Positions 760 to 16,957 of a stretch of DNA of 32,262 nt are shown here, in pieces. The position numbers and the translations under genes were made by a program. This DNA is from Candidatus Aminicenantota bacterium (lineage in GTDB: Bacteria; Acidobacteriota; Aminicenantia; UBA2199): positions 1 to 32,262 of the forward strand of contig JAOZUQ010000029.1 of the NCBI GenBank assembly GCA_029938635.1, read 5' to 3'. Position 1 is the stretch's first letter, and every line of letters starts with the position of its first letter. Below the pieces are notes generated by a model. It searched no databases. It had not been told where the DNA came from and worked only from the letters and a program-made list of their open reading frames with translations.

Positions 760-3639
760 TTAAAAGTTAACTCTTACTCCGAACTGGAATATCCCGGGAT
801 TAAGTACCCTGAGAATATCACCCTGACTACTTCCGAGAACAGCATTAACTTTTAGTGTTGTGGCGTTATTGGTAATATTGTACCCGTCAACAAACACTGT
901 AGTTGTAACTGTGTCTGACACCTCGAATGTTTTTTCCAATCCGAGGTTCAGCATCCAGAATGTCGGCAGCCTGTCGTCACCGATCTTCTTGTCCGGTTCA
1001 TATATCTGATCCCATCCCAGGCCCGGCCTGTAGTACTCTTCATAATAAGGAATTACGTACCCCTCTCTGGCTGTGAAAACAGCTGTAAGGTTAAGCCCCC
1101 ACGGGAGCTTATACAATCCGGCAAGTTTGAACTGCCACCTGGCATTAATGAATATATCGGTTAAACCCGATCCGCCAGCTTCCGGTGCAACTGCCCCGCC
1201 ATCAAAGAAGTCAAAATTTGTAAGGTCTGTTCCATAATAGTTGTCAAAATATTCTGATTTAGTCCTTGCTTCCTTCCAGTCAGCATAGGAGAATGATGCA
1301 TCCAGCATCCACTTATCTGAGAACTTCTTGGTTACTGCAAATTGAATCGATGTATACTTATCACTATAGTCAGAACTGTGGTTTGTTAATGTGTTTCCCA
1401 GAGGCCTGGTGTATTGGAGATAATACTCTTTGGTTTTACCATTCGAAAAAGTATGTGTGCCGCCTATATACCAGTTAGCTGCGGTTTCGAGTGATCCATC
1501 CGGCATTTGTCCCCTGTACCACAGCAGATTATGCCTGTTCTTATAGAGGCCTGTCAGAGATACGACAAGGTCATTTCCAAATGCTTTCTCAAATGAAATT
1601 ATCAACTCATCAAGTAGAGGTGTATTCAGGTCCGGATCATATTTATTTCTGCTCTCTGTTGCATAAGGATCCTGTTCGTTAATATTCCAGTATAACCAGT
1701 CTTCGATATTTTCACTCCACTCACCCATCTCAACTATTCCATTTCCATTGTCATTCCAGGCAACATCGATCTCTCTTGCCCATGCGGTCCATGTATGGTC
1801 TGTTAATGTTTGTCCACTCTGCCCTCCATATCTTGCAAGAGATAATTTAACAACATTCTTTCCATCTCCAGAGATATCATAAGTAAAAGATAACCTCGGT
1901 GAAATGACCTCAAATGCCGCAGGAACATCCTTTCCAGCGATTGTAAGGTCTCCCATATATGCAGTGAATATCGGAGTGCCGTTAAATGTTAATCCCGGAA
2001 CTGTGGTCTCATTGTGCGATCCCTCCTCTTTATCATATCTGACACCAAAAGTTGCTGTCAGTTTCCCGAATGTAGCTGTATCGGACAGATAGAATGATCT
2101 CCTCTTGAATCCAAGGTTCTCAATTCCATTTGTTGTCCACCAGATCGCTTTATCAGATGTAGGGTCTCCTCTATCCCTTTGTGTCAGAGTCCTCTGGTTA
2201 GGAAAATAGATACTTGTTTGTGTGTCAGCTGTATAATAGTCAACTCCGAATCTGATCTCATGATCACCACCCATTACACCCTCAGCAAAGTAGTTACCAT
2301 TAAGTGAAAAGTTGAGTGAGTTTCTGTCTGTTCCATAATAATACATGTTCCCGTCATTGTAGAATGATGGTTTTGAATACTGCATCCTGTCCGGGCCTGT
2401 CAGAGATCCGTCCACAAGTTCACCGGCTTTTGGATCCAGTGCAAATCCACCGTCAGTATATGCAAATTTTGCAGTCAACATCAGGTTGCCTATGATCTGC
2501 TGCAAAGATCCATGCATAACAGATCCGGGTCCATACTGGTCCCAGAGAGATCCGGCACTCTGACTGGCGGCTCCATATGCAGCTCTTCCCCATTTTTTCT
2601 TGTCATCATAGGTGTAGGTAAAGTCACCCGCCGTATTACCAAACTGGACATTTAATTTTGCATAGCCTGCTGCCAGCCAGGTTGCATCCTCGGTCTGGGC
2701 AATAGTTTTGGAATGGATATCCTGGATACCCCACGAACCGAAGAACCATACCTTGTCCTTTACAATAGGGCCACCGAAGTTTATTCCGTATTGATACAAT
2801 CTTAATATACCCGGAGCTTCAAGCCCTGAATCGATCATACTCTGAGGAGTGGTCTGACTCATCTCCCAGGCTTCATCTTCAACATATAGATGGAAATCAC
2901 CTGAGTAATTGTTACCTCCCCTCTTCGTGACGAAGTTCAATTGAGTGCCGCCTGTCTGAGCAGTAATATCATTTGAACCGACTGTTACCTGGAGTTCCTC
3001 AAAAGTGTTAACATTAAGGTATGTGGGTGCCGCACCGATAGCAGACGGGTCTGTTATGTTAGCTCCGTCAACATTCCATGTTACATCCGCATCACTCCCT
3101 CCGTTACCGTAAAATCCGGACTGCTGACCGGATTCATTACCACCGACATCTTCCCTGTCAACCATCATTCCGGGAACAAGGTTAAGGATCGTCCACGGGT
3201 TCCTCGCGGTCGGAAGAGATTGGATCATCTCCTTTGATACACTTACGGAAACAGTGGTTTTCCTTGTATCTACAGCACTGGCTACACCTTTAACTTCTAT
3301 GACCTCTTTTAACTTGGTCGTTTCCATCTGAACGTTAAAAGTTTTGTTCTTACCAACAAACAGTCTTACCCCTTTCTGAATTACAGTTTTGAACCCTTCG
3401 AGTTCAAACTTTAATTCAACCATTCCCGGGGAAAGCCCCAGGAATCTGAAGTTCCCCTGTTCGGATGTAACCGTAACTTTTTCACCGACAACATCACCGG
3501 TAAGTGTTACCGCTACTCCGGGGATTGATGATCCATCAGGCAATACTACCGTTCCGTAAATGTCTGATGTCGATCCCTGTGCAAATGACAGTCCGCATAG
3601 AACTGCAACCGCCACAAGTAATGTGAATAATTTCTTCAT
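760..3639 (-). CDS. TonB-dependent outer-membrane receptor with carboxypeptidase-regulatory-like domain
   Basis: This 959-residue protein has a signal peptide (about residues 1-20, ending LSFAQG). Next comes a beta-sandwich of the CarboxypepD_reg-like type (about 25-105, with DIYGTVVLPDGSSIPGVAVTLTG-type strands), then a plug domain (about 115-240) and a long beta-barrel to the C-terminal Phe (RVNF), the usual last residue of outer-membrane barrels. The order matches Oar/SusC-like TonB-dependent receptors, which import large or scarce substrates using energy from TonB-ExbBD. No TonB box, SusD partner or transport operon is visible, so the substrate cannot be inferred. The start ATG 3639 is backed by AAGGAG about 7 nt upstream. 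The gene stands alone and ends at a terminator hairpin. Confidence 0.9.
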   Translation of the reverse strand: MKKLFTLLVAVAVLCGLSFAQGSTSDIYGTVVLPDGSSIPGVAVTLTGDVVGEKVTVTSEQGNFRFLGLSPGMVELKFELEGFKTVIQKGVRLFVGKNKTFNVQMETTKLKEVIEVKGVASAVDTRKTTVSVSVSKEMIQSLPTARNPWTILNLVPGMMVDREDVGGNESGQQSGFYGNGGSDADVTWNVDGANITDPSAIGAAPTYLNVNTFEELQVTVGSNDITAQTGGTQLNFVTKRGGNNYSGDFHLYVEDEAWEMSQTTPQSMIDSGLEAPGILRLYQYGINFGGPIVKDKVWFFGSWGIQDIHSKTIAQTEDATWLAAGYAKLNVQFGNTAGDFTYTYDDKKKWGRAAYGAASQSAGSLWDQYGPGSVMHGSLQQIIGNLMLTAKFAYTDGGFALDPKAGELVDGSLTGPDRMQYSKPSFYNDGNMYYYGTDRNSLNFSLNGNYFAEGVMGGDHEIRFGVDYYTADTQTSIYFPNQRTLTQRDRGDPTSDKAIWWTTNGIENLGFKRRSFYLSDTATFGKLTATFGVRYDKEEGSHNETTVPGLTFNGTPIFTAYMGDLTIAGKDVPAAFEVISPRLSFTYDISGDGKNVVKLSLARYGGQSGQTLTDHTWTAWAREIDVAWNDNGNGIVEMGEWSENIEDWLYWNINEQDPYATESRNKYDPDLNTPLLDELIISFEKAFGNDLVVSLTGLYKNRHNLLWYRGQMPDGSLETAANWYIGGTHTFSNGKTKEYYLQYTRPLGNTLTNHSSDYSDKYTSIQFAVTKKFSDKWMLDASFSYADWKEARTKSEYFDNYYGTDLTNFDFFDGGAVAPEAGGSGLTDIFINARWQFKLAGLYKLPWGLNLTAVFTAREGYVIPYYEEYYRPGLGWDQIYEPDKKIGDDRLPTFWMLNLGLEKTFEVSDTVTTTVFVDGYNITNNATTLKVNAVLGSSQGDILRVLNPGIFQFGVRVNF

Positions 3640-3924
3640 AATAAGTCTCCTTATTTAAGATCAGAAAAAATCTTCTGTCACCTCTTAACATTCAGTTTCC
3701 TTTCCAATAAAGAAAAATAAACATGGAGTTTTTGACATCAAACTTATATCGAGGAGAACCGGTTATACAGAAACGGGATATTACATATAAAGTCTTGATA
3801 AAATTACAAAAAAAATAATATCAGGTCAGATAATTCATATATTTGAAATATAACATCAAAAAAACGTAGCCAGGAAATCATCAATTAGAAAGTGAATTGC
3901 AATATTCTGTCTATTTTCCTGAAA
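3640..3924. other. AT-rich intergenic region without a supported gene
   Basis: The gap between the divergent receptor and flavin-reductase-like genes is 361 bp, of which the right end (3925-3969) is described separately. The left part should contain the receptor promoter, but I could not place a convincing -35/-10 pair. A loose inverted repeat CAGAA-N6-TTCTG lies at 3662-3677, just upstream of the receptor start. One 31-codon frame from ATG 3723 has no ribosome binding site and is not called. Confidence 0.5.
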
Positions 3925-3969
3925 ATAAGAACATATTCTCATGGAGTTTACCATTACAAACCATATAAT
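3925..3969 (+). promoter_or_regulatory. palindromic activator-type site A plus -10 box
   Basis: ATAAGAA-CATA-TTCTCAT (3925-3942) is an inverted repeat with one mismatch. Exactly 21 nt separate it from TATAAT (3964-3969). The hexamer 17 nt upstream of the -10 (ATGGAG) does not resemble a -35, so the promoter looks activator dependent, with the repeat centred near -42. Expected transcription start is about 3976, giving a leader of about 25 nt before the TTG start of the flavin-reductase-like gene. Two further copies of the repeat occur at 5564-5581 and 10391-10408. Confidence 0.65.
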
Positions 3970-4000
3970 ACTTATAAACGAAATTTAGAAAGGAGGAAAT

Positions 4001-4528
4001 TTGGAATTGATAAATATACCCAATAATAAACTGAGTGTGAAGATCAATGATATCTGGTACAACAAATGGTTTTTGTTAACAAGCGGCGACTTGGAGACTC
4101 AGCACTTTAACACAATGACCGTAGCATGGGGATTTTTAGGAATAATGTGGAATAAGCCTGTTGCAGCAGTTGTTGTACGTCCTGGAAGATACACTATTGA
4201 GTTTATTGAAAAGTATGAACACTTTACTCTCTCTGCTTTTGACAGACAATACAGAGATGACCTTACATTGCTGGGAACAAAATCCGGAAGAGATGGAGAC
4301 AAAATATCCGAAACCAAACTCAATCCAACTCCATCCGTTATTGTCCCTTCTCCATCCTTTAAAGAAGCAGAACTTATCATAGAGTGCAAAAAGATATATT
4401 GGGATGATTTCAAACCGGAGCATTTTCTTGACCCTTTGATAGACAAGAACTATCCAAAAAAAGATTATCACAGGATCTATTTCGGAGAGACCCTGAAAAT
4501 ATCAGGTTTAAAAAAATACCATAGCTAA
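4001..4528 (+). CDS. flavin reductase-like FMN-binding split-barrel protein
   Basis: This protein of about 175 residues has the features of the flavoredoxin/DIM6-NTAB flavin reductase family. These are a strand region near residue 20 (WFLLTSGD), the FMN-contacting stretch NTMTVAWG with a following W-N-K-P (about 33-50), and the segment RPGRYTIEFIEKYEHFTLS. It probably binds FMN and acts as a small cytoplasmic flavin or NAD(P)H-dependent oxidoreductase; substrate unknown. The start is unusual: there is no in-frame ATG, only TTG at 4001 (4 nt after a strong AGGAGG) or TTG at 4007 (10 nt after it). I use 4001 but either may be right. The gene is monocistronic and sits behind palindromic site A. 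Confidence 0.82.
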   Translation: MELINIPNNKLSVKINDIWYNKWFLLTSGDLETQHFNTMTVAWGFLGIMWNKPVAAVVVRPGRYTIEFIEKYEHFTLSAFDRQYRDDLTLLGTKSGRDGDKISETKLNPTPSVIVPSPSFKEAELIIECKKIYWDDFKPEHFLDPLIDKNYPKKDYHRIYFGETLKISGLKKYHS

Positions 4529-4615
4529 ACTCATTTGCAATTGTTTTTTTAAGTAGATAGTTTATTATCAAAAATTATATGAAAATCTATTACATCTGAT
4601 AACAATTATTTCACA

Positions 4616-5476
4616 TTACAAACTGAGGATCATTTCATATTGCCCCAGGCCCGGAGAGATATTTAAACTTTTCATAAACTTTTTTATTGGTTTATATTCT
4701 ACTATTGTATTAAGGACCTTGATCTCTTTATTTTTTGAATATTTTAATAATTCAGAAAAAAGTAGAGTAGCTAATTTCCGGTTTCTATGACTTTTTTCAA
4801 TACAAAATTGTGGTATATCTCCTGTTTCCGGTTCAACAATTCCATATCCGATTATATTCTTTTTAAAAGATATTCCGATTATTTTAAAATTGGATTCCTT
4901 TCTTTGTATCGATTCTATTGAATTCTGCCATGAAGGTACAAAATTCCAAAAGCTTCTTAAAAGTTCCCAATCCGGCTTTATATCATTCTGGAAACTATAT
5001 GAATTTGGAAGTACGCTTTGTGTGAGTTTTATATCAGAAATTTTAGAAACAAAATAGTCAAATTCCCTGACTACTGAAAATCCCGCTTTTTTATAGAGGT
5101 CAAAAGCCTTAGTGTTTGATTTTATTACTTCAAGAAGATATTGTTTTACTCCATTATCCCTTAAAACCGGGAGAGATTCATTAAAAATCTTTGTTGCCAG
5201 TCCCTTTTTTCTATACTCTTTTATAATTCCTGTACCGGTATCATATGCAGTAGGAAGGCTGTCCCATATTCCTTTCCCATTTAAAGTGAACCCTATAAGT
5301 TTACCATCATCAAAAGCACCAAAAGAAATATCCTCATTGTATCCACGCCTCTCGATCATATATTTAAGTTGTGGAAAAGTGAGATCAAAAGGTTCAACAT
5401 AATCTGAAAAGGCTCTTCTAAAACAATTGTGTATTGTCTTAATGTTTACCCCTGTTAATAATTTTATCTCAATCAA
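4616..5476 (-). CDS. tandem GNAT-family N-acetyltransferase
   Basis: This 286-residue protein has two GNAT folds. The N-terminal one (about 1-150) carries the acetyl-CoA pyrophosphate loop in EYRKKGLATKIF and the typical AFDLYKKAGF ending. The C-terminal one (about 170-286) has a second loop in SHRNRKLATLLFSELL. Two-GNAT proteins of this size acetylate small amines or protein N-termini, but neither half allows a substrate call. The start is TTG 5476, preceded by AAAGGGGGAATTA; no in-frame ATG lies nearby upstream. It converges on the flavin-reductase-like gene with 87 nt between them, and diverges from the membrane-protein gene at 5696. Confidence 0.85.
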   Translation of the reverse strand: MIEIKLLTGVNIKTIHNCFRRAFSDYVEPFDLTFPQLKYMIERRGYNEDISFGAFDDGKLIGFTLNGKGIWDSLPTAYDTGTGIIKEYRKKGLATKIFNESLPVLRDNGVKQYLLEVIKSNTKAFDLYKKAGFSVVREFDYFVSKISDIKLTQSVLPNSYSFQNDIKPDWELLRSFWNFVPSWQNSIESIQRKESNFKIIGISFKKNIIGYGIVEPETGDIPQFCIEKSHRNRKLATLLFSELLKYSKNKEIKVLNTIVEYKPIKKFMKSLNISPGLGQYEMILSL

Positions 5477-5563
5477 TAATTCCCCCTTTCACAGCAATTA
5501 CTATTTCTATCATTATATATATAATTTTTTAATAAACATGAGTATTAAATCGTTTTTTTGAAA

Positions 5564-5608
5564 ATGAGAAATTATTCTCATGAATAATTTCATTCATGAA
5601 TTTATACT
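5564..5608 (+). promoter_or_regulatory. palindromic activator-type site B plus -10 box
   Basis: ATGAGAA-ATTA-TTCTCAT (5564-5581) is a perfect 7-4-7 inverted repeat. TATACT (5603-5608) follows after 21 nt, the same gap as at site A. No -35 box is recognisable. Between repeat and -10 lies a second small palindrome, ATTCATGAAT (5592-5601), which could be an extra operator. The arrangement points rightward, to the membrane-protein gene at 5696; no -10 box at matching distance faces the GNAT gene to the left. Confidence 0.65.
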
Positions 5609-5695
5609 CTTTACACAGGGCGAATTAATTTGACTAATTATAAAATATTTGCCAAAGTGCTTAAATTGCATCATTCTATTTAGTTATAAAAAAAA

Positions 5696-6493
5696 ATGGA
5701 CACATTATTCCTGTTAAGATTAGTACTGACCTTTTTTACCGGAACAGCATGGATCTATTTCTCGATCTCCATCGGGAAAAAATTCGGAAGTAAGATCAGT
5801 GGATTCATAGCCGGATTGCCATCAACGGCTTTATTATCCTTTTTTTTCATAGGATATTCCCAATCACCGCACATTGCTTCAAGTGCTGCAACCATTTTCC
5901 CCCTGTCATATGCAATGACCGGGATGTTTCTTCTCATTTATGCAAAGTATGTTGAGAAGGGACTTTACTTCGCCTTATCAGCAGGGCTTTCTATATGGTT
6001 TTCAGGAGCTCTGATCTTAGCAATTCTGAAACCGTCAAATTATCTTCTAAATCTTTTGTTGTACTTAATTATTCTTATTTTTTTAGTTTTTGGTCTTAAA
6101 AAAATTTCAGGTTCCGGATCTAATATAAAAAAAAAGATCATATATTCATCCTCTCAAATAACGATCAGATCTCTATTCGGAGGTTTATTAATCACATTAG
6201 CTGTATTGCTCTCCAAAATAGGAGGGCCAGTATTTGGAGGAATATTTGCTGCTTTTCCAGCGATGTTCATATCAACACTTACTATTTCATACAGGTCCTA
6301 CGGAATGAGATTTTCAAAAGCATTAACAAAACCCCTGCTGCTAACAGGAATGATAACAATTGTTATTTTCTCAATAGGAGTAAGATATTTCTACGTACTA
6401 TTCGGTTTATATCTGGGAACCATTCTTTCAGTATTTTTATCTTCCATAAGTGCATTCCTGACTCTTGCTTTTATACAAAAAAAAATCAGATAA
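5696..6493 (+). CDS. polytopic inner-membrane protein with internal duplication
   Basis: A 265-residue, strongly hydrophobic protein with about nine transmembrane helices. Two halves carry related signatures: GFIAGLPSTALLSFF near residue 36 and GGIFAAFPAMFIST near residue 181. Each is a Gly-rich turn, then G/A-x-P, then a helix, so the protein seems to have arisen by duplication of a four-helix unit. The signature resembles DUF3147-type membrane proteins, but I hold that loosely. No transport motif or catalytic residue is recognisable. The ATG is preceded only by an A-run (TTATAAAAAAAA) with no Shine-Dalgarno, which is odd here and may mean weak or regulated translation. Palindromic site B lies about 115 nt upstream. 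Confidence 0.75.
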   Translation: MDTLFLLRLVLTFFTGTAWIYFSISIGKKFGSKISGFIAGLPSTALLSFFFIGYSQSPHIASSAATIFPLSYAMTGMFLLIYAKYVEKGLYFALSAGLSIWFSGALILAILKPSNYLLNLLLYLIILIFLVFGLKKISGSGSNIKKKIIYSSSQITIRSLFGGLLITLAVLLSKIGGPVFGGIFAAFPAMFISTLTISYRSYGMRFSKALTKPLLLTGMITIVIFSIGVRYFYVLFGLYLGTILSVFLSSISAFLTLAFIQKKIR

Positions 6494-6512
6494 CACTTTT
6501 CTGACCTTTCAA

Positions 6513-6863
6513 TTACCTGAGGGAAGTACTAATATCCTTAAGGAAATACTTGAGGTCCTCCTGGCTCCTGATTTTCCTTGTCTCCCTTATTTTAAACTTC
6601 TTTATCTTTTCGTTGAGGGTGGTTGGTTTAAGCCCGAGAATAAATGATGCTATCCTCTGACTTCCACCTGACACTCTTAATGCCCGGCAGATCAACTCCT
6701 TCTCAAATTCTCCCATAAAATTCTTCAGCGGAACATTCGCACTAACACAATTGCTCAAAAGATAATTTTTTATAAGTGTATCCCTTAACTTCTTAAGATC
6801 ATTTGTAGCATCTGTTGAATCCGTATCTTTAGAAAATTCATCCATTATCTTATCTGTTTTCAT
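6513..6863 (-). CDS. small Fis-type helix-turn-helix DNA-binding protein
   Basis: The C-terminal half (about residues 50-95 of 116) matches the Fis/HTH_8 fold: FEKELICRALRVSGGSQRIA, then LGLKPTTLNEKIKKF, the pattern that ends NtrC-type activators and forms the Fis protein. The N-terminal half is charged and has no AAA+ or receiver domain, so this is a stand-alone DNA-binding protein. I place the start at ATG 6863, which has AGGGA about 9 nt upstream. A longer frame from TTG 6953 would run into the preceding small gene and encode unlikely sequence. It is the last gene of the minus-strand cluster and converges on the membrane-protein gene with a 19-nt gap. Confidence 0.8.
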   Translation of the reverse strand: MKTDKIMDEFSKDTDSTDATNDLKKLRDTLIKNYLLSNCVSANVPLKNFMGEFEKELICRALRVSGGSQRIASFILGLKPTTLNEKIKKFKIRETRKIRSQEDLKYFLKDISTSLR

Positions 6864-6915
6864 TTTTATGATTCCCTGAATCTGTTTTTTACTGCCTAAA
6901 CCGCATCCGGAGAAT

Positions 6916-7116
6916 TCAAGACACTTTTTTAGAATATATAATATACTCAACAATTAAGAAGAATAACGGAAAAGTGATACTTAGAAGTATTTGAGTATCT
7001 AACCCGATAACACATTCCCCGCTTATCAAATTTAAAGACCTGAATAAGAGAAATATAATTGCTGCTAATGACAGACTTTGAAGGACCCCGAAGATCCAGA
7101 ATATTCTTGTTTTCAT
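6916..7116 (-). CDS. 66-residue two-TM membrane protein
   Basis: A short frame with ATG 7116 and a good Shine-Dalgarno (AAGGAG, 7 nt upstream). The product has two predicted membrane helices (about residues 4-24 and 43-62) joined by a short acidic loop, with a charged tail YSKKVS. It has no recognised family. It lies between a LytTR gene (57 nt upstream) and a Fis-type HTH gene (52 nt downstream). In known LytTR regulatory systems a small membrane protein holds the LytTR protein inactive, which suggests, but does not show, such a role here. The clear ribosome binding site and coding-like composition make a real gene likely. Confidence 0.68.
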   Translation of the reverse strand: MKTRIFWIFGVLQSLSLAAIIFLLFRSLNLISGECVIGLDTQILLSITFPLFFLIVEYIIYSKKVS

Positions 7117-7173
7117 TGCTACTCTCCTTGTCTAATGATTTTATAATAACTACATTTCTTGTTCTTTTTCATT

Positions 7174-7506
7174 TTAGATCCTTATGAGTTTTACCAGTCT
7201 CTCCCGGTATCTCCTACCCCACTGCAGAGTTTTATTATTATTAAGAACTATTACAAAATTGTTGTTCTCCGACTCCCTCATCTCATTTATCCTGTCAATA
7301 TTGACTATGGTAGATTTGTTCACTCGCATGAATTCGTCAGGCCCAAGTTCCTCTTCGAGGAAAATTAATGACCTCTTCACCACATAGCTTTTCTCATCAC
7401 AAAATAGCCGGCAATAGCTCCCCTCCGACTCTATGAAATTAATTTCATTCTTATTGACAAAATAATAACGTCGGCCGTTCTTAATGAGTATTTTTCCCAT
7501 AGTCAT
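7174..7506 (-). CDS. stand-alone LytTR-domain transcriptional regulator
   Basis: This 110-residue protein is almost entirely one LytTR DNA-binding domain (PF04397). It contains NEINFIESEGSYCRLFC, then the signature EFMRVNKSTIVNIDRI, and a final strand NNKTLQWGRRYRERLVKLI. It has no receiver domain, so it is not a classical phospho-response regulator. LytTR domains usually bind imperfect direct repeats. ATG 7506 lies 5 nt after the stop of the preceding GNAT gene, so translation is probably coupled; ATG 7500 is an alternative start. Its control may come from the adjacent two-TM protein or from the LytS-type kinase at the left edge of the window, but neither link is demonstrated. Confidence 0.88.
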   Translation of the reverse strand: MTMGKILIKNGRRYYFVNKNEINFIESEGSYCRLFCDEKSYVVKRSLIFLEEELGPDEFMRVNKSTIVNIDRINEMRESENNNFVIVLNNNKTLQWGRRYRERLVKLIRI

Positions 7507-7511
7507 TCAGA

Positions 7512-7979
7512 TCACGATTCCTTGAAGGATTTATAACTCTGCAGCTCCATCCCGGGAGAAGTAACATGCCTTATAACAAACCCATTCCTTTTATAAAATT
7601 CTGTTTTCCCTCTTGCACAGAATAATTGGATATCACGGATATTGTGTTTTTTACATTGATCTAAAAGAGATTTAAGGATCATTGTTCCTATTCCTCTTTT
7701 TTTAAATCCAGGATGAACGATCATATCCACGATCAACGCATGAAGTATTCCATCAGATATTATTCGGCCGAATCCTACTAATGAATTATCCTTATATGCT
7801 GCAATCATATACCAACTTGCAGAAATGGCAGAAATCAATTCATCTCTGTTTAAATTGTAATAATCATTCCATCCGGTAGTTTCAAATAGTGAAAAGAATT
7901 TATCTTTATCAGGGATCAGATTGCTGTATATGATATTTGCTTTTTCTCTATAACTGATCGGATTTGAGTTGAATTCCAT
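7512..7979 (-). CDS. GNAT-family N-acetyltransferase
   Basis: A 155-residue single-domain GNAT protein. The acetyl-CoA-binding motif is visible as HPGFKKRGIGTMILKSLL (about residues 88-106), preceded by the strand ALIVDMIV and followed by LFCARGKTEFYKRNGF, the usual end of the fold. Substrate unknown. Its ATG overlaps the stop codon of the upstream Ntn-hydrolase gene by one base (TAATG), with GAGAGGG inside that gene serving as ribosome binding site, so the two proteins are probably made in linked amounts. An acyl-amide hydrolase next to an acyltransferase may act on the same amine, but this is a guess from position. Confidence 0.87.
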   Translation of the reverse strand: MEFNSNPISYREKANIIYSNLIPDKDKFFSLFETTGWNDYYNLNRDELISAISASWYMIAAYKDNSLVGFGRIISDGILHALIVDMIVHPGFKKRGIGTMILKSLLDQCKKHNIRDIQLFCARGKTEFYKRNGFVIRHVTSPGMELQSYKSFKES

Positions 7980-9286
7980 TATCCCTCTCCATTAATAAAA
8001 AAAGATCTTGTTATAGTTTCACTGCTGAATACGGCATTTCCTGTATTGGCCCTGATCTTCCAGAAATAATTAACATCTGTCTCAAGGCTGGAAATAGTGT
8101 GTGAAAATCTGATTTGAGTCTCTGTAGAAAGAACATCATCAGAGATCCGGCATTCTGTGAAAAGCAGCAAAGCAATTAGTATTAACAAAATCCGGATAAG
8201 GTATCCTGAACGATTCTTATATCCTATTAATAAAAATCCAAAAAGAAAATAGTGGTAATGACTGATCTTTAAGATATGAACAGATGCAATCATTGTATCT
8301 ATTGGAATAGTTATACATTCAGAAAGATCTTCATTCAGAGAATAAACAAGTTCATAAATACTATCCGGTTTCCCATACCACTCAAAATTTACATCTATAG
8401 TATTTATCTTCTGCCTGTCCACAGGAAATATAATATCAATATTTGAGAAAAGTAGAGGAATATCTATCTCCGTGTTTCTCTTTAAACTATTCTGATCCAG
8501 GGTTATTTTTATATATTCTGAAAAATTGTGATAATAAAAAAGGTAAACAGAAGATTCCACTGAATTGTAAATATTCGAGTATTGTGTAGGATACTTCCCC
8601 TCCTGGTGAGTTGACTCAAGAATATTTATTATAAGTGGAATATCCAGAGCAGTATTTTTGTCTAAAATTTTCTTTGCTGCTTCATACCTCTCACATGGAT
8701 ATCCACCGAGTGAAGGGAAAGAATGATAAAAATTTGTCATAATCTGATATCTGTTTTTTTTTAAAATATATCCATCCCCTTCAACGATCACAGAACTACC
8801 GAATCTGTCTCCTATCAGATATTGAGCTTCAAACTGGTCATCACAATAATATTTTTCAAATATTTTCAGAGCATCTGCAATAGTTTTGCACTCCTCCATT
8901 ATCTTTTTCATTAACGGGCCTGTATATTTGATCTTATTCGCAACCGAAACAGGCATATCAAGAAATGGAACTGCTGTAGCATCCCAGAAAAGCCCATACT
9001 CATTCATCCCTCCCTGGGGGAATCCACTCTTAAATCCAAACTTTATCCATCCGTATTTATTTTCTGCCGGTGCAACAAATATCATCAATGTTTTCGGGTC
9101 GCTCCAATCCTCGTTATTACCCCCAAGTGAGATCCCGTTCCAGGAAACATAGAATACAGTACAAGAAAAAACTCTAATCCCTGAGAAAAAAAAGAAAATC
9201 AACAGGAAAAACAATAAATTCCTCTTGTTCTTCCCCGGGCAGGACCCGGCTGATCTTACCGGATATCCGTTATTTTCAGTTGCCAT
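7979..9286 (-). CDS. exported Ntn-hydrolase (linear amide C-N hydrolase family) with C-terminal membrane hairpin
   Basis: After a hydrophobic signal (about residues 24-41) the sequence reads SCTVFYVSWNG and then GGNNEDW. This is the N-terminal-nucleophile pattern of choloylglycine hydrolase and acyl-CoA:6-APA acyltransferase relatives, with Cys42 as nucleophile. Signal-peptide cleavage at Ser41 would expose it. The hydrolase region ends near residue 295. The rest looks like a fibronectin-III-like fold split by two membrane helices (about 344-379). Such enzymes cut linear amide bonds such as N-acyl amines. Start choice is uncertain: ATG 9286 overlaps the upstream gene by 31 nt and gives a long polar N-terminus. 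TTG 9214 has AAGAGGAA just upstream and would give a normal signal peptide. Confidence 0.78.
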   Translation of the reverse strand: MATENNGYPVRSAGSCPGKNKRNLLFFLLIFFFFSGIRVFSCTVFYVSWNGISLGGNNEDWSDPKTLMIFVAPAENKYGWIKFGFKSGFPQGGMNEYGLFWDATAVPFLDMPVSVANKIKYTGPLMKKIMEECKTIADALKIFEKYYCDDQFEAQYLIGDRFGSSVIVEGDGYILKKNRYQIMTNFYHSFPSLGGYPCERYEAAKKILDKNTALDIPLIINILESTHQEGKYPTQYSNIYNSVESSVYLFYYHNFSEYIKITLDQNSLKRNTEIDIPLLFSNIDIIFPVDRQKINTIDVNFEWYGKPDSIYELVYSLNEDLSECITIPIDTMIASVHILKISHYHYFLFGFLLIGYKNRSGYLIRILLILIALLLFTECRISDDVLSTETQIRFSHTISSLETDVNYFWKIRANTGNAVFSSETITRSFFINGEG

Positions 9287-10290
9287 ATCTCATTCTCTTC
9301 TTCTTCGATCAATTGGTAGATTTTGCCCTTATAAATTGTAAAAGGTGAGAAGAGGAGAGGATTCATAAAGTGAAGGGGCAGTTCCCTTCTTCCCAGAAAA
9401 TTACCATCCGGATCATAGAAAAAAGTTTCGAGCCCCTCCTCAGATCTTTTCCAGGTGAATATATATATTTTGGAGTTATCAGAATATATGAAAAATATAA
9501 CAGGATAATATTCGGGAAAGACCAATCTCTTTTGCATACTCCTGTAAACATAATCAGGGGAATTCGCTTTCAGATAATTCAAGAAGTTTTTTTTATCTCT
9601 CTCTTTAAACTTCAGCCGCTTATAATCCCTTTTGATCGTGAACAAACTGTCACCATTAGAATTAAAGGCCCTGACAATAAAACCTTCTTCACCCGAAATA
9701 TAGATCCGGGATCCGAAGGTTTTGTATGAAAAAGCCTTTTTAAAAAAATTTTTATTCCCTTTTAATGAATCAAATCTTGAACCCACACTTGTCCGATATA
9801 TCTCTTTAACTTTTTGCAGCCTGCTGTTGTAAATATTTATAGTCCTGAACCCCTCATTTTTATCCATGTCTGTTCCGGTTCCAATATATCCGTTATTAAA
9901 AGGTTGGAACCCACCTGAAATCCCCGTGTCTTTCGGCGATCTTATATCCTCGATAAATTTCCCATCCATGGAAAAGTATGAAACTTTCCCGAGACTGCTC
10001 ACTAATACTTTACCTGATACAATATGAAGTCGGATAACCCCTAAAAACTCACCGGGACCTTCGCCTTTTTTACCAAATCTTTTTAACAGCCTGGAATTGT
10101 TCAGATCAAAAATAAGTATCGTCGCCTTTTCAGTTACAAACATCCGGTCCTTTTCGATCACAATAGATCCGGGTTTTAAAATGTCAGGAAACGAAATAGC
10201 CTTATCTGACTTTTCCGAAAATAGAACCCCGCTTATCAAAAATAGTATAATTATCAGCAGATATAAAAACATTAATAATGCTCTTTTCAT
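9256..10290 (-). CDS. exported 6-bladed beta-propeller protein
   Basis: The protein (344 residues from ATG 10290) starts with a long hydrophobic signal or anchor (about 4-25) and continues as a beta-propeller of the 6-bladed type. The key motif GKKGEGPGEFLGVIRL near residue 78 marks this family (PF17170-like), and blades repeat the pattern G-x-I-Y-I/V. Members are periplasmic or surface proteins, abundant in Bacteroidetes- and Aminicenantes-like genomes; their ligands are mostly unknown. AAGGAG 8 nt upstream selects ATG 10290 over an in-frame start 39 nt further up. It is the first gene of a six-gene minus-strand operon and lies back to back with the propeller-LuxR sensor gene. Site C and a good -10 box lie in its upstream region. 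Confidence 0.82.
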   Translation of the reverse strand: MKRALLMFLYLLIIILFLISGVLFSEKSDKAISFPDILKPGSIVIEKDRMFVTEKATILIFDLNNSRLLKRFGKKGEGPGEFLGVIRLHIVSGKVLVSSLGKVSYFSMDGKFIEDIRSPKDTGISGGFQPFNNGYIGTGTDMDKNEGFRTINIYNSRLQKVKEIYRTSVGSRFDSLKGNKNFFKKAFSYKTFGSRIYISGEEGFIVRAFNSNGDSLFTIKRDYKRLKFKERDKKNFLNYLKANSPDYVYRSMQKRLVFPEYYPVIFFIYSDNSKIYIFTWKRSEEGLETFFYDPDGNFLGRRELPLHFMNPLLFSPFTIYKGKIYQLIEEEENEIWQLKITDIR

Positions 10291-10330
10291 CAAAACTTCT
10301 CCTTCAAAACAAATTATCCTTAAGATCAAA

Positions 10331-10351
10331 TTTTTGGTAATTAACCAAAAA
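10331..10351. promoter_or_regulatory. inverted repeat in the leader of the propeller operon
   Basis: Arms TTTTTGGT (10331-10338) and ACCAAAAA (10344-10351) pair perfectly around a 5-nt AATTA spacer. With the proposed minus-strand start near 10358 the repeat would fall at about +8 to +28, so it could be a repressor site or a weak hairpin in the leader. It differs from the ATGAGAA repeat. Confidence 0.5.
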
Positions 10352-10364
10352 ACTATCTGCTTAT

Positions 10365-10408
10365 ATTATATTTACAAATATAAAAAATAAATGAGAAAAT
10401 CTTCTCAT
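10365..10408 (-). promoter_or_regulatory. palindromic activator-type site C plus minus-strand -10 box
   Basis: ATGAGAA-AATC-TTCTCAT (10391-10408) is a perfect 7-4-7 inverted repeat, identical in both arms to site B. On the minus strand TATAAT (10370-10365) follows after 20 nt, matching the 21-nt gap at sites A and B; there is no good -35. This would start transcription near 10358 toward the six-gene operon. On the plus strand TATATT (10435-10440) lies 26 nt from the repeat, so autoregulation of the divergent sensor gene is possible but the spacing fits less well. Confidence 0.65.
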
Positions 10409-10514
10409 TTTGTATTTTTATTACTTTAGCAGGATATATTATTATAATTAAAGAAATTAAATTATTCCGACAAAAATTCATTTATTTTCGTATGATTATA
10501 GTGGAAAGGATCCA

Positions 10515-13244
10515 ATGAAAATTCTTGTATTTATAATTATTCTAACTTCATCTTTATTATGTTTGACGGGGCCGGGAATCAGCGATATCCAATTCGGCCA
10601 TATAACTATTAATGATGGCCTGTCCCAAAATACTGTTTATTGCATTTTCCAGGATAAAAAAGGTTTTATGTGGTTCGGAACAGAGAAAGGACTAAATAAA
10701 TATGATGGCCACAGTTTTAAAATTTATACACATTGCCCATCTGATCCCGAAAGCCTTAGTTACAACATGGTGTTATCAATTTATGAATTTCCTGATGAAC
10801 CCGGGATACTATGGGTCGGGACCTGGGGTGGAGGATTAAACAGGTTCGATACAACAAATGAAAGTTTCACTCATTTTAAAAGAGATGAGAATAAATATAA
10901 CAGCATTAGTGATAACACCATAAGAGTTCTTTATAAAGACAGCAACAATTACTTGTGGATCGGGACCGATTCAGGAATAAACAGATATATGAAAAACACT
11001 TCCGAATTTAAAAATTTCCAAATCTTAACAAAAAGTAAATCTGTCTCAGAGGGAAACAGAGTTTTGTCAATAATTGAATTAAACAATGGAACTATACTGG
11101 CAGGGACAGATGGAGAGGGAATATATTATTACGATAAAGATAAGGATGGATTTTCACCTTTTATTCCATCAGGAATACCGGACAGTTTTTTAAGATCAAA
11201 AGTACGATCCATGATCAAAGACAGATCCGGAGATTTATGGGCCGGCACCTATGGTTCCGGTATCTTCAGGATAGATAATAAAGGAAAATTTAAAAACAAA
11301 TATGATAGCAAAATGAAGAGTAACGGTCTGAATAATGATTTTATAAGATATATTGTTCAGGATCATTATGGATACCTGTGGTTTGCAACTCATGGGGGCG
11401 GCCTGATCAGATTTAACCCGGATAAAAGTTCAATGCACTCTTTTAATTATAGTGAGAAGGACCCTGGAAGTATAAGCAACAATATCGTTCTCTCGGTTCT
11501 TGAGGACAAAGAAGGTGTTTTATGGGTTGGGACTTTTGGGGGTGGGGTTGATAAGTATGATAACAGGAAACATTATATAGAAAATATAAAAATATCAAAT
11601 AACTCCCGGAGTGGCATTTGGCAAAATACTATCACATCATTATCCATTGGTATAGGCAACAGAATATGGATTGGATCTGAAGGCGGGGGGATCGGATATT
11701 ATGAACCTGACTCAGGAAAAGTAAAATATCTCATGCTCAATCCTGAATATGAGAAAGATATCCTCAGTAATATCATTTATGCGATCCTGGAATACAAACC
11801 CGGAAGATTATTGCTGGGGACGTGGGGCGCAGGACTTTATGATTTTGATGTTAAATCAGGAGGCTCTAAACATTACGAATTTCCAGAAGATCCCACAGGA
11901 AGTTTAAGTAAAAGCAGGATCGTATCTCTTCTAAAAGACAAATCAGGAGATATTTGGATTGGAGCATGGGGTGAAGGATTGATCCGGCTGAGAAGGAATG
12001 AAAAAAGAATAATTAGTTATGAGAATAATAGATCAGATCCGGACTCTCTAAGCAACAACATGATTCATTCTTTGTACGAGACCCGCTATGGGGAGATCTG
12101 GATCGGTACAGAAAATGGCTTGAACAGATTTCAAAGAGACACCGGAACATTTACAAAATATTTTAATGGTCCCGGGAATCCTGAAACATTGAGCAACAAT
12201 AAAGTAATTACGATCTATGAAGACAGATCGCAAACTTTGTGGATAGGAACAGATCATGGACTTAACCGGTATAACAGAACTTCAAATTCATTTACATCTT
12301 TTTCAACAGATTGCGGGCTGCACGGGGAATCAATATTTGGGATACTGGAGGATAGTGAGGGGAATCTATGGATTAGTACAAATTTCGGTTTAAATAAATT
12401 TAATCTGTCTGACAAAAGATTTACTACTTTTGATGTAAGAAAAGATATCAGTAGATATGAATTCAGCAGAGCTCATTCCCTGGGAAAAGACGGGAGAATG
12501 TATTTTGGAGGAGTTGATGGTATTTATGCCTTTTATCCTCACGAACTGAAGCAAAACTTGTTTTCTCCTGAAATTGTGTTTACATCTTTTAAAAAATTTC
12601 AAAAGGAGGTAAAACTCCGAAGGAGTATTTCAGTACTTTCTGAACTGAATCTCTCCCATAATGATTCAATAATTTCATTTGAGTTCTCATCCCTGAGTTT
12701 CTCAAATCCAGAAAAGAACATGTATGCTTACAAACTACAGGGATTGTATGAGAACTGGATATATCTTGGAAATAAACACGATATCTCATTTACTAATCTT
12801 GATCCCGGTGAATATGTACTTAAAGTAAAAGGGTCTAATTCAAATGGAATGTGGAATGAAAAAGGAACATCTATAAAAATAATTGTCTCCCCTCCATTCT
12901 GGCAAACTTGGTGGTTCAGGTTTTTTATACTAATCCTGATGACCTTACTTGTCTATATTTGGCACAATAGCAGAATGTTACGGTTAAAAAACCAATTAAA
13001 ATCAGAGCATGCGATAGAAAAACTCTGCCAGAAGAAGAAAATATCCAGCCGTGAAAAAGAGATCATTTTTTTAGTGATAAAAGGGATAAGCAATAAAGAG
13101 ATCGAGGATAAATTATTCATTTCACCACACACTGTCAAGAACCATATTTACAATATTTTCCAAAAATTGAACATCAGCAGCAGAGGACAATTGACAGAAT
13201 TATTTAAAAATATTTATTTTTCCGAAAACGATAATGAAGATTAG
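10515..13244 (+). CDS. transmembrane propeller sensor with Y_Y_Y domain and LuxR-type HTH output
   Basis: This 909-residue protein has a signal peptide (about 1-20), then 14 Reg_prop blades of the type G-x-L-W-I/V-G-T-x-x-G-L (about 25-670), enough for two 7-bladed propellers. A Y_Y_Y domain (about 710-795, ending IVSPPFWQTWW), one membrane helix (about 799-817) and a cytoplasmic LuxR/GerE helix-turn-helix follow. The HTH (about 840-900) has SSREKEIIFLVIKGISNKEI and SPHTVKNHIYNIFQKL. This is the hybrid two-component (HTCS) sensor layout, except that the kinase and receiver are missing: periplasmic ligand sensing seems to act directly on a membrane-tethered DNA-binding domain. The start has AAAGGA about 5 nt upstream. 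Divergence from the minus-strand operon around site C suggests it controls that operon. Confidence 0.9.
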   Translation: MKILVFIIILTSSLLCLTGPGISDIQFGHITINDGLSQNTVYCIFQDKKGFMWFGTEKGLNKYDGHSFKIYTHCPSDPESLSYNMVLSIYEFPDEPGILWVGTWGGGLNRFDTTNESFTHFKRDENKYNSISDNTIRVLYKDSNNYLWIGTDSGINRYMKNTSEFKNFQILTKSKSVSEGNRVLSIIELNNGTILAGTDGEGIYYYDKDKDGFSPFIPSGIPDSFLRSKVRSMIKDRSGDLWAGTYGSGIFRIDNKGKFKNKYDSKMKSNGLNNDFIRYIVQDHYGYLWFATHGGGLIRFNPDKSSMHSFNYSEKDPGSISNNIVLSVLEDKEGVLWVGTFGGGVDKYDNRKHYIENIKISNNSRSGIWQNTITSLSIGIGNRIWIGSEGGGIGYYEPDSGKVKYLMLNPEYEKDILSNIIYAILEYKPGRLLLGTWGAGLYDFDVKSGGSKHYEFPEDPTGSLSKSRIVSLLKDKSGDIWIGAWGEGLIRLRRNEKRIISYENNRSDPDSLSNNMIHSLYETRYGEIWIGTENGLNRFQRDTGTFTKYFNGPGNPETLSNNKVITIYEDRSQTLWIGTDHGLNRYNRTSNSFTSFSTDCGLHGESIFGILEDSEGNLWISTNFGLNKFNLSDKRFTTFDVRKDISRYEFSRAHSLGKDGRMYFGGVDGIYAFYPHELKQNLFSPEIVFTSFKKFQKEVKLRRSISVLSELNLSHNDSIISFEFSSLSFSNPEKNMYAYKLQGLYENWIYLGNKHDISFTNLDPGEYVLKVKGSNSNGMWNEKGTSIKIIVSPPFWQTWWFRFFILILMTLLVYIWHNSRMLRLKNQLKSEHAIEKLCQKKKISSREKEIIFLVIKGISNKEIEDKLFISPHTVKNHIYNIFQKLNISSRGQLTELFKNIYFSENDNED

Positions 13245-14662: not shown

Positions 14663-16348
14663 ATGATTAATAAAACATATTTTTTTGCCTTCATTATATC
14701 GTTATTTTTTTTAACGTATTCTTATGCTGACAACAATTCGAAAAATATTCAGGTCAATTCTCATTCAAATTATCAGATATTGAAACAGGATTTTAAAAAG
14801 CCCGGGGATGTAACAAAGGCATGTTTAACCTGTCATACGGAAGCAGCAAAAGATATCATGAAAACCTCCCACTGGACCTGGTCGAACAAAACAGACAAAC
14901 TCCCCGGCAGAGAAGGCAAAATATATGATATAGGGAAAAAGGAAGGACTCAATAATTTTTGTATATCGATCCAGTCAAATGAAGAGAGATGTACAAGTTG
15001 TCATATAGGCTATGGATGGAAGGACAAGCATTTTGATTTTTCTGATGAGTCCCGTGTAGATTGCCTGGTGTGCCATGACACGACAGGCACATATGAAAAA
15101 TTCCCTTCCGGTGCCGGATATCCGGTCGGAGGAGACCACGGATCCCTGAAAGGCAAAGAGTCGGTTCTGTTTAAAGGGAACAAGAAAACCTACCATAAAC
15201 CTGATTACGGATTGATTGCTCAAAATGTTGGTGAACCGGGAAGAGAGAATTGCGGAGTCTGCCATTTTTACGGAGGAGGCGGAAATGACGTTAAGCATGG
15301 TGATCTGGATAAATCCCTGCTGAACGCAACCCGCAGCATTGATGTCCATATGGCAATAGATGGTGCAAATATGAACTGCAATGATTGCCACCCTGCAAAG
15401 AATCATGAAATTAAGGGGCAGCTCTATTCTGTTGAAAGTGAAGATAAGAACAGAGTAAGTTGTGAAAAATGTCATACCGAAACTCCACATACAGGCAGAC
15501 TATTCACAGACAAATATGACAACAGATATAACAATAAACTAAGGGAGAGAAAAGCTCCGGAAAAAACCTTTGAGCACCTTATCCTCGATAGACACAGCAA
15601 GAATATTGCATGCCAGACCTGTCACATCCCCCACTATTCCAAAGTTCACAAGACCAAGGTTTATTGGGACTGGTCCAAAGCAGGGAAAAAATTCACTTCA
15701 GGCCCAAACAAAGGGAAGCCACTGGTGCTGAAAGATGAGGACGGGAATGTTATATATAACGGGAAAAAGGGTGAGTTCAAGCTGGCAAAAAATATTATCC
15801 CTGAATACTTTCTTTTTAACGGTGTTGCAGGACATACACTTATCGATGATAAAATTGATCCTTCAAAAGAACCGATTGAACTGAATCAGATGTATGGAGA
15901 CTGTAACAGTAAAAGAACCAAGATCTGGCCGATGAAAGCAATGAAAGGGAAACAACCATACGATCCTGTTAACAAAACTTTTGTATACGTAAAACTTTTC
16001 GGTAAAAAGGGATCAGGAGCATATTGGTCCGATTTTGACTGGGTAAGATCTGCAACTGAAGGGATGAAATACGCAGGAAAACCGTTCAGCGGCAAAGTCG
16101 ATTTTATCGAAACAAAAATGTACTGGCCTATATCACATATGGTTTCACCAAAAGAGGATGCACTTAAATGTTCCGAATGTCATTCCAGAAACGGAAGGAT
16201 GAAAGATCTGGATAGTTGCTGGATCCCCGGCAGAGACAGGATACAGATAATCGATATATTCGGATTTCTTTCAATACTGGGTGTTATATTCGGTGTTTTG
16301 ATCCACTCTTCTCTAAGATTGTTTTTCGGTAAAAAGTTTAAAAAATAG
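14663..16348 (+). CDS. octaheme c-type cytochrome, tetrathionate reductase (OTR) family
   Basis: Eight CxxCH haem-binding motifs start at Cys54, 110, 134, 197, 239, 267, 317 and 503 of a 561-residue protein with a signal peptide (about 1-22). The third motif lies in DCLVCHDTTGTYEKFPSGAG, a stretch typical of the octaheme tetrathionate reductase family. Shewanella OTR, the characterised member, reduces tetrathionate and also nitrite and hydroxylamine in vitro. The C-terminus adds a membrane helix (about 530-550), which suggests the periplasmic haem domain is anchored to the inner membrane. AAAGGAGG precedes the ATG. A cytochrome b561-like gene follows after 9 nt, so the pair probably forms a quinol-to-periplasm electron-transfer complex. 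The true electron acceptor cannot be read from sequence. Confidence 0.92.
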   Translation: MINKTYFFAFIISLFFLTYSYADNNSKNIQVNSHSNYQILKQDFKKPGDVTKACLTCHTEAAKDIMKTSHWTWSNKTDKLPGREGKIYDIGKKEGLNNFCISIQSNEERCTSCHIGYGWKDKHFDFSDESRVDCLVCHDTTGTYEKFPSGAGYPVGGDHGSLKGKESVLFKGNKKTYHKPDYGLIAQNVGEPGRENCGVCHFYGGGGNDVKHGDLDKSLLNATRSIDVHMAIDGANMNCNDCHPAKNHEIKGQLYSVESEDKNRVSCEKCHTETPHTGRLFTDKYDNRYNNKLRERKAPEKTFEHLILDRHSKNIACQTCHIPHYSKVHKTKVYWDWSKAGKKFTSGPNKGKPLVLKDEDGNVIYNGKKGEFKLAKNIIPEYFLFNGVAGHTLIDDKIDPSKEPIELNQMYGDCNSKRTKIWPMKAMKGKQPYDPVNKTFVYVKLFGKKGSGAYWSDFDWVRSATEGMKYAGKPFSGKVDFIETKMYWPISHMVSPKEDALKCSECHSRNGRMKDLDSCWIPGRDRIQIIDIFGFLSILGVIFGVLIHSSLRLFFGKKFKK

Positions 16349-16357
16349 GAGAAAATA

Positions 16358-16957
16358 ATGAAGAAAATCAAATTATATTCAATATTCCAGAGATTTTCAC
16401 ACTGGTTCCAATTCCTGCTGATATTAGTATTGGCAATAACAGGATTTGAAATTCACGGGAATTTCATAATACTCGGATTCAGCGGTGCCGTAAAACTACA
16501 TAACCTTGCAGCTCTTGTTTTAATAATCCTCTACCTGTTCATATTCTTCTGGTTCGCTACGACAGGAGAGTGGAAACAATATATTCTGACTAAGAACAAA
16601 CTTTATGCAATGATCATGTATTATGCAAAGGGGATTTTCAAGAATGAACCCCATCCTGTAAAAAAGACAGAATTAAGCAAACTAAATCCTCTTCAGAGAA
16701 TAACATATTTCACATTCAGATTTATTCTGATACCTCTAATGGTAGTAACAGGAATCATATATTTTTATTCCAGTATAAACATGGGCGTTAAAGTAAACCC
16801 TGTAAAACTCATAAGCATAATTCATACGATAGGGGCATTTGTTATTGTCTCCTTCGTCATAATTCATGTCTATATGACAACTACGGGACATACGATATTT
16901 TCAAATATAAAAGCAATGATAACCGGGTATGAAGAAATACCTGAAGAAGAGGACTAA
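16358..16957 (+). CDS. cytochrome b561-like membrane haem subunit
   Basis: A 199-residue protein with four membrane helices and four well-placed histidines (His15, His48, His156, His170) that match the two b-haem ligand pairs of the Ni-hydrogenase/formate-dehydrogenase cytochrome b family (PF01292). It opens with IFQRFSHWFQFLL, the family's usual first helix start, and ends in an acidic cytoplasmic tail. It should oxidise quinol in the membrane and pass electrons to the octaheme cytochrome encoded just upstream. GGAGAAAATA in the 9-nt gap supplies the ribosome binding site, and the two genes are surely cotranscribed. Confidence 0.9.
   Translation: MKKIKLYSIFQRFSHWFQFLLILVLAITGFEIHGNFIILGFSGAVKLHNLAALVLIILYLFIFFWFATTGEWKQYILTKNKLYAMIMYYAKGIFKNEPHPVKKTELSKLNPLQRITYFTFRFILIPLMVVTGIIYFYSSINMGVKVNPVKLISIIHTIGAFVIVSFVIIHVYMTTTGHTIFSNIKAMITGYEEIPEEED

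Follow-up and report, generated by a model that had tools for sequence, protein, structure and literature searches.

The locus and its inverted repeats

The window, as the whole analysed stretch of 32,262 nucleotides is called here, is contig C98 of a 3.05 Mb genome in 137 contigs (G000). The plus strand carries a gene for a flavin-reductase-like protein (PF01613) at positions 4001–4528 and one for a membrane protein with a partial DUF3147 match at 5696–6493. A predicted six-gene operon is found on the minus strand. Its first gene (9256–10290) encodes a secreted propeller-type protein related to the propeller genes of sister modules; the listed open reading frame extends to a TTG at 10329, and an ATG is present at 10290. 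This is followed by a C45/AAT-like Ntn hydrolase that scores below curated cut-offs (7979–9286), a GNAT acetyltransferase (7512–7979), a standalone LytTR DNA-binding protein (7174–7506), a 66-aa hydrophobic protein (6916–7116) and an HTH_8 (Fis-type) protein (6513–6953). Divergent from the operon, on the plus strand, is the open reading frame of a large putative regulator (10515–13244).

The standalone LytTR and HTH_8 pair (6513–7506) is a recurrent module in relatives (L185, L186, L133, L135, L187–L193) and often adjoins propeller-LuxR hybrids or TonB receptors. On contig C48 two such pairs stand in tandem ahead of a TonB receptor, which shares 74% identity with the TonB receptor of the window. 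Further along the window, at 14663–16957, a multihaem-cytochrome-like gene is paired with a membrane protein gene; a syntenic contig of genome G002 carries the genes on both sides and shows no match to the pair.

An 18-base palindrome with the consensus ATGAGAA-N4-TTCTCAT is present at three neighbouring promoters. Site 1 (3925–3942, plus strand, ATAAGAACATATTCTCAT) has one mismatch, and site 2 (5564–5581, plus strand, ATGAGAAATTATTCTCAT) and site 3 (10391–10408, ATGAGAAGATTTTCTCAT on the minus strand) are exact. The first-pass annotation of this DNA, which reported two exact copies and one with a single mismatch, has all coordinates right. Its estimate that exact copies should arise by chance well under once in 1,000 windows is in line with the 0.0004 (independent bases) to 0.0009 (first-order Markov) expected per window; from the window composition, 0.03–0.09 are expected per genome.

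The genome-wide motif scan that the annotation proposed yields three exact copies and one copy with one mismatch, three of the four being those at the window promoters, clustered within 6.5 kb (chance approximately 1e-5). A reversed-pattern control gives no copy in the same genome, either exact or with one mismatch. The remaining copy, G000:C40:4601, is found within a coding frame; thus the observation that no copy is found inside genes holds for the window but not for the genome as a whole. Allowing two mismatches adds 39 places, for a total of 43, versus 16 for the control across the whole genome, and since these places are mostly background, the near-perfect copies are essentially the real sites. 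An Rfam search of the window gave no match.

Promoter geometry

The −10 box of the flavin-reductase-like gene (TATAAT, 3964–3969, plus strand) and that downstream of site 2 (TATACT, 5603–5608, plus strand) each begin 21 nt from the end of the repeat, and the −10 box of the six-gene operon (TATAAT, 10365–10370, minus strand) 20 nt from it, exactly the gaps noted earlier. Measured from the dyad centre to the first base of the −10 box, the distances are 30.5, 30.5 and 29.5 nt for sites 1, 2 and 3. If the −10 box starts near −12, a distance of 29.5–30.5 nt places the dyad centre near −42. A search for −35 boxes at 16–18 nt spacing from the −10 box gave best matches of only 3/6, 3/6 and 1/6, which bears out the earlier remark that no usable −35 is present, and a promoter scan listed none of the three as a two-hexamer promoter. 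The centre-to-−10 distance is 29.5–31.5 nt in eight promoters from the window and other genomes. A fixed distance to the −10 box, a weak −35 (at most 3/6 in the window) and a centre near −42, as reckoned from predicted starts, are together the features of class II activation. Across module promoters in general, palindromes near −42 are not significantly in excess (14 vs 8.9 ± 2.6).

Site 3 is situated as well in the divergent spacer shared with the regulator gene at 10515–13244. On the regulator side the nearest TATAAT is at 10443, 34 nt away, so that autoregulation from site 3 is possible, at a geometry unlike that of the three target promoters. A perfect palindrome of another sequence, TTTTGGT-N5-ACCAAAA, lies at 10332–10350, just 3′ of the operon −10 box and inside the predicted leader; it may be a second operator or an RNA hairpin.

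A candidate membrane-spanning LuxR-type regulator

Three local regulator candidates are found in the window: the LytTR protein, the HTH_8 protein and the hybrid protein at 10515–13244. The hybrid displays a signal peptide, Reg_prop propellers, a Y_Y_Y domain, one transmembrane segment and a predicted cytosolic GerE helix-turn-helix (HTH) with the recognition helix SPHTVKNHIYNIF. Besides the N-terminal signal there is a hydrophobic segment at approximately residues 797–817, between Y_Y_Y and the GerE domain at about residues 835–909. A membrane-spanning segment and a DNA-binding domain are thus present in one protein, as is characteristic of transmembrane transcription regulators. Pfam gives Reg_prop, Y_Y_Y and GerE for this sequence and no autoinducer-binding domain, which rules out a LuxR of the AHL-binding type.

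One-component regulators of the LuxR type that span the membrane and carry propeller/Y_Y_Y sensors are common in the family. The best matches to the full-length hybrid are two G008 hybrids and one from G003 (621, 600 and 574 bits), with paralogues from its own genome lower (422, 399 and 291 bits). G002 carries a partial orthologue, 96% identical, that ends at a contig edge. In the same-genus genome G001 only a 50-aa HTH remnant is present (88% identical), together with no intergenic dyad site and no close flavin-reductase orthologue. The loss of both site and regulator in G001 is weak evidence for their association because the flavin-reductase target was lost too.

In G003 a different dyad, TGACA-N2-TGTCA, occurs in seven exact genome copies (control 0) and is found at promoters of LuxR hybrids, a propeller protein and neighbouring genes (L188, L243, L246).

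The dyad in related genomes

Among 142 genomes of the class, an exact dyad with a −10 box at 20–23 nt is found only in this genome and in G008. G008 has three sites (up to one mismatch), all intergenic and all 22 nt before a −10 box, with the centre 31.5 nt before it. The gene that follows each of them has a class I lanthipeptide leader (NF038153). No precursor of this type was found in G000; the two genomes thus have site and geometry in common but differ in targets. The dyad was not found at lanthipeptide-type precursors of other genomes. In family genomes other than G008, sites within one mismatch lie in coding frames or have no promoter context.

A comparison of upstream regions in relatives, called for by the first-pass annotation, therefore has a divided outcome: the dyad appears with the same geometry in G008 but is absent from the flavin-reductase orthologue loci among the best matches. 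G010, which has the closest flavin-reductase orthologue, shows no GerE, Crp_2, LytTR or HTH_8 relative.

All seven family genomes that reach about 5 Mb (G004, G005, G008, G011, G014, G018 and G021) contain precursor leaders of the class I lanthipeptide type, with 5–42 matches each; none of the 27 smaller ones does.

Scan of 84,980 genomes

The pattern AAATGAGAA-N4-TTCTCAT-N20-22-TANANT was searched in 84,980 genomes, with loci selected without reference to proteins. Eleven loci were found, about the rough chance expectation, and several of these are terminator-like or coding. The count is near chance, and it is the GerE neighbours alone that stand out: at two of the eleven loci the dyad immediately adjoins a gene for a multi-TM GerE/LuxR protein, and no GerE gene was found at the others. 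In Ignavibacteriales SURF_24 (L144) a multi-TM GerE protein (5934–6872) and an M61 peptidase are encoded divergently, with the dyad in the spacer that separates them; in a Bacillota MAG (L153) the dyad has a multi-TM GerE protein (3021–3887) on one side and an M20 peptidase on the other. A dyad upstream of potential targets with a GerE gene nearby is thus present in the window and at both of these loci. The HTH of the Ignavibacteriales protein shares 67% identity with the window HTH, the highest of the HTHs compared (the paralogues on C64 and C94 give 60%). Both the GerE neighbours and this similarity were noticed post hoc, in the course of a comparison of helices. A plasmid search for relatives of the Ignavibacteriales regulator gave three HTH-only matches.

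In two species of Candidatus Tenebribacter (L145, L154) the dyad precedes a TATAAT by 21 nt and is followed by an operon for a 115-aa protein and an ATPase-like protein, with no GerE gene nearby.

The recognition helix and the DosR box

In DosR, residues Lys179, Lys182 and Asn183 contact bases (PMC4082495). A gapless alignment places His-Lys-Asn at these positions in the window protein; Lys182 and Asn183 are kept and Lys179 is replaced by His. An unusual recognition helix of the type xxHTVKNHIY is common to the window, G008 and the Ignavibacteriales protein. His at the Lys179 position is found in the window protein, the G002 orthologue, the G001 remnant, G008:C28, G008:C442, G023:C14 and the Ignavibacteriales protein. 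The Bacillota protein has Asn here and most others have G, K, S or N.

The window dyad was compared with the box of the NarL-family response regulator DosR/DevR and is not one. The core GGGACTWWAGTCCC is not present, and three of five half-site positions match (−7 G, −5 G, −4 A), with A at both −6 and −3 (GAGAA, not GGGAC). Given the shared positions −7, −5 and −4 and the differences at −6 and −3, the dyad is DosR-like in kind without being a DosR box. Promoters were scored with a DosR-box consensus taken from outside the data set. Promoters of related GerE/LytTR/HTH_8 genes are enriched for it, with at least 11 of 14 matches in 10 promoters (100 shuffles: 1.4 ± 1.25, maximum 5). The relative G008:C625, whose own helix has Lys, shows the DosR core AGGACTTTAGTCCC.

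Dyads resembling the DosR box (e.g. AGGACTTTAGTCCC) are found in GerE/LytTR/HTH_8 promoters at L140, L192, L233, L267 and L280.

Interpretation and alternative explanations

The first-pass annotation read the repeats as a small regulon under a LuxR-type class II activator, naming no particular regulator, and this is supported by the scarcity of the dyad, its fixed distance to the −10 box, its reuse in G008 and the adjacent GerE/LuxR genes at two scan loci. As judged from sequence, the dyad is very probably the operator of a GerE/LuxR-type regulator, and the protein at 10515–13244 is the probable cognate regulator. Given these two points, the geometry makes activation the likely mode, rather than repression. 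The complete reading, in which the dyad would be the operator of this propeller-Y_Y_Y-TM-GerE protein and would serve class II activation of three transcription units, is given a probability of roughly 0.68.

The periplasmic double propeller and Y_Y_Y domain would sense a signal, which the single transmembrane helix would relay to the cytosolic GerE domain. A GerE dimer would bind ATGAGAA-N4-TTCTCAT through its xxHTVKNHIY helix and, positioned near −42 just upstream of a poor −35, would contact RNA polymerase in the class II manner. The flavin-reductase-like gene, the membrane-protein gene and the six-gene operon would be the activated units.

Several observations count against this reading. 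G023:C14 has an H-type helix, yet G023 has no site within one mismatch; the Bacillota helix carries N, not H; and the G008 proteins with H-type helices fall short of full propeller hybrids and, in an assembly that is fragmented, do not adjoin the sites of that genome.

The alternative that survives best keeps operator and regulator and has the bound protein repress, by blocking RNA polymerase at the −35 region. The dyad does abut or overlap that region, and the −35 boxes at the G008 and Bacillota promoters are fair (4–5/6), which makes activation less compelling there. Repression is nevertheless unlikely, as the distance to the −10 box is fixed within 2 nt across the eight promoters, the window −35 boxes are poor, as in class II activators, and transmembrane LuxR proteins of another kind are activators (PMC9734109).

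Somewhat less probable again is that the standalone LytTR or HTH_8 protein of the operon, acting as autoregulator, binds the dyad in place of the GerE hybrid. The genes of both are at the locus, and their pairing is conserved in many relatives, where a propeller-LuxR hybrid is frequently transcribed divergently from them; HTH_8 dimers can bind inverted repeats. But G008 has sites and no relative of the HTH_8 protein, its only LytTR being of the response-regulator type; LytTR and HTH_8 genes are absent near the Ignavibacteriales and Bacillota sites; and the paralogous pairs of the same genome carry no dyad.

A CRP/FNR-family regulator using the dyad as a class II site, read as A-TGAGA-N6-TCTCA-T, is very improbable. 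Position and half-site shape are CRP-like, and a single CRP-like gene (C88) is present in the genome. Its orthologue in the same genus, G001:C103, encodes an identical HTH, yet G001 has no intergenic site; in G008, which has three sites, a genuine HTH_Crp_2 protein is missing and the best match is GntR-like. Regulator and operator thus fail to co-occur, and CRP/FNR is rejected as cognate regulator. That the repeats are palindromic by chance, or serve as terminators or as an RNA hairpin, as AT-rich spacers and the terminator-like or coding scan loci might suggest, is the least credible of all, in view of fewer than 0.001 expected per window, the fixed −10 geometry, the negative result of a search for terminators at the dyads, the functional coherence of the G008 sites and the GerE neighbours in other phyla.

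For the preferred reading, in which the GerE hybrid binds the dyad, a wider extension can be proposed tentatively, at slightly less than even odds. A GerE specificity subclass with the xxHTVKNHIY helix might read the dyad in this lineage as well as in Ignavibacteriales and Bacillota, joined to membrane sensors as different as propeller/Y_Y_Y and multi-TM ones, and steer peptide-related genes, by which are meant lanthipeptide-type precursors, the M20 and M61 peptidases and the C45-like hydrolase. The dyad would then be a DosR-box relative in which two half-site positions have changed. Operon content and the targets in other genomes give a hint of peptide-related genes.

A predicted operator tied to a recognition helix would make the regulons of propeller/Y_Y_Y LuxR regulators findable from sequence, and would reveal how a membrane-anchored regulator gains access to its local promoters. 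It offers a testable recognition rule, that a change of DosR Lys179 to His changes GGGAC to GAGAA, and would link LuxR regulators with propeller/Y_Y_Y sensors to promoters of lanthipeptide-type precursors.

Comparison with known systems

In the literature searched, no described operator was found for propeller/Y_Y_Y membrane LuxR-type regulators. Class II sites of CRP/FNR share a dyad centred near −41.5, but here the CRP-like orthologue and the operator do not co-occur. Transmembrane LuxR proteins of Eggerthella lenta (DadR, CadR, HcdR) are activators (PMC9734109); these and other transmembrane regulators (PMC10269533) have in common with the window a LuxR-type HTH on a membrane protein beside its targets. 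The E. lenta proteins have a 12-TM sensor, whereas the window regulator has one transmembrane segment and propellers, and no operator (palindrome, inverted repeat or DNA motif) for them was found in the text searched (PMC9734109).

LuxR and TraR, acting as class II activators from a lux or tra box near −42, share the dyad of approximately 18 bp of the form ATG...CAT, the class II position and the LuxR-family HTH. The window protein differs in that an autoinducer-binding domain was not found and that it carries a periplasmic propeller/Y_Y_Y sensor. With DosR/DevR the GerE domain is common, as are the palindrome with G at −7 and −5 and A at −4, the retained Lys182 and Asn183, and a proximal box that abuts the −35 or, as with DevR, overlaps it (PMC3029386). 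The window regulator differs from DosR/DevR in having His for Lys179 and no receiver domain, and in spanning the membrane.
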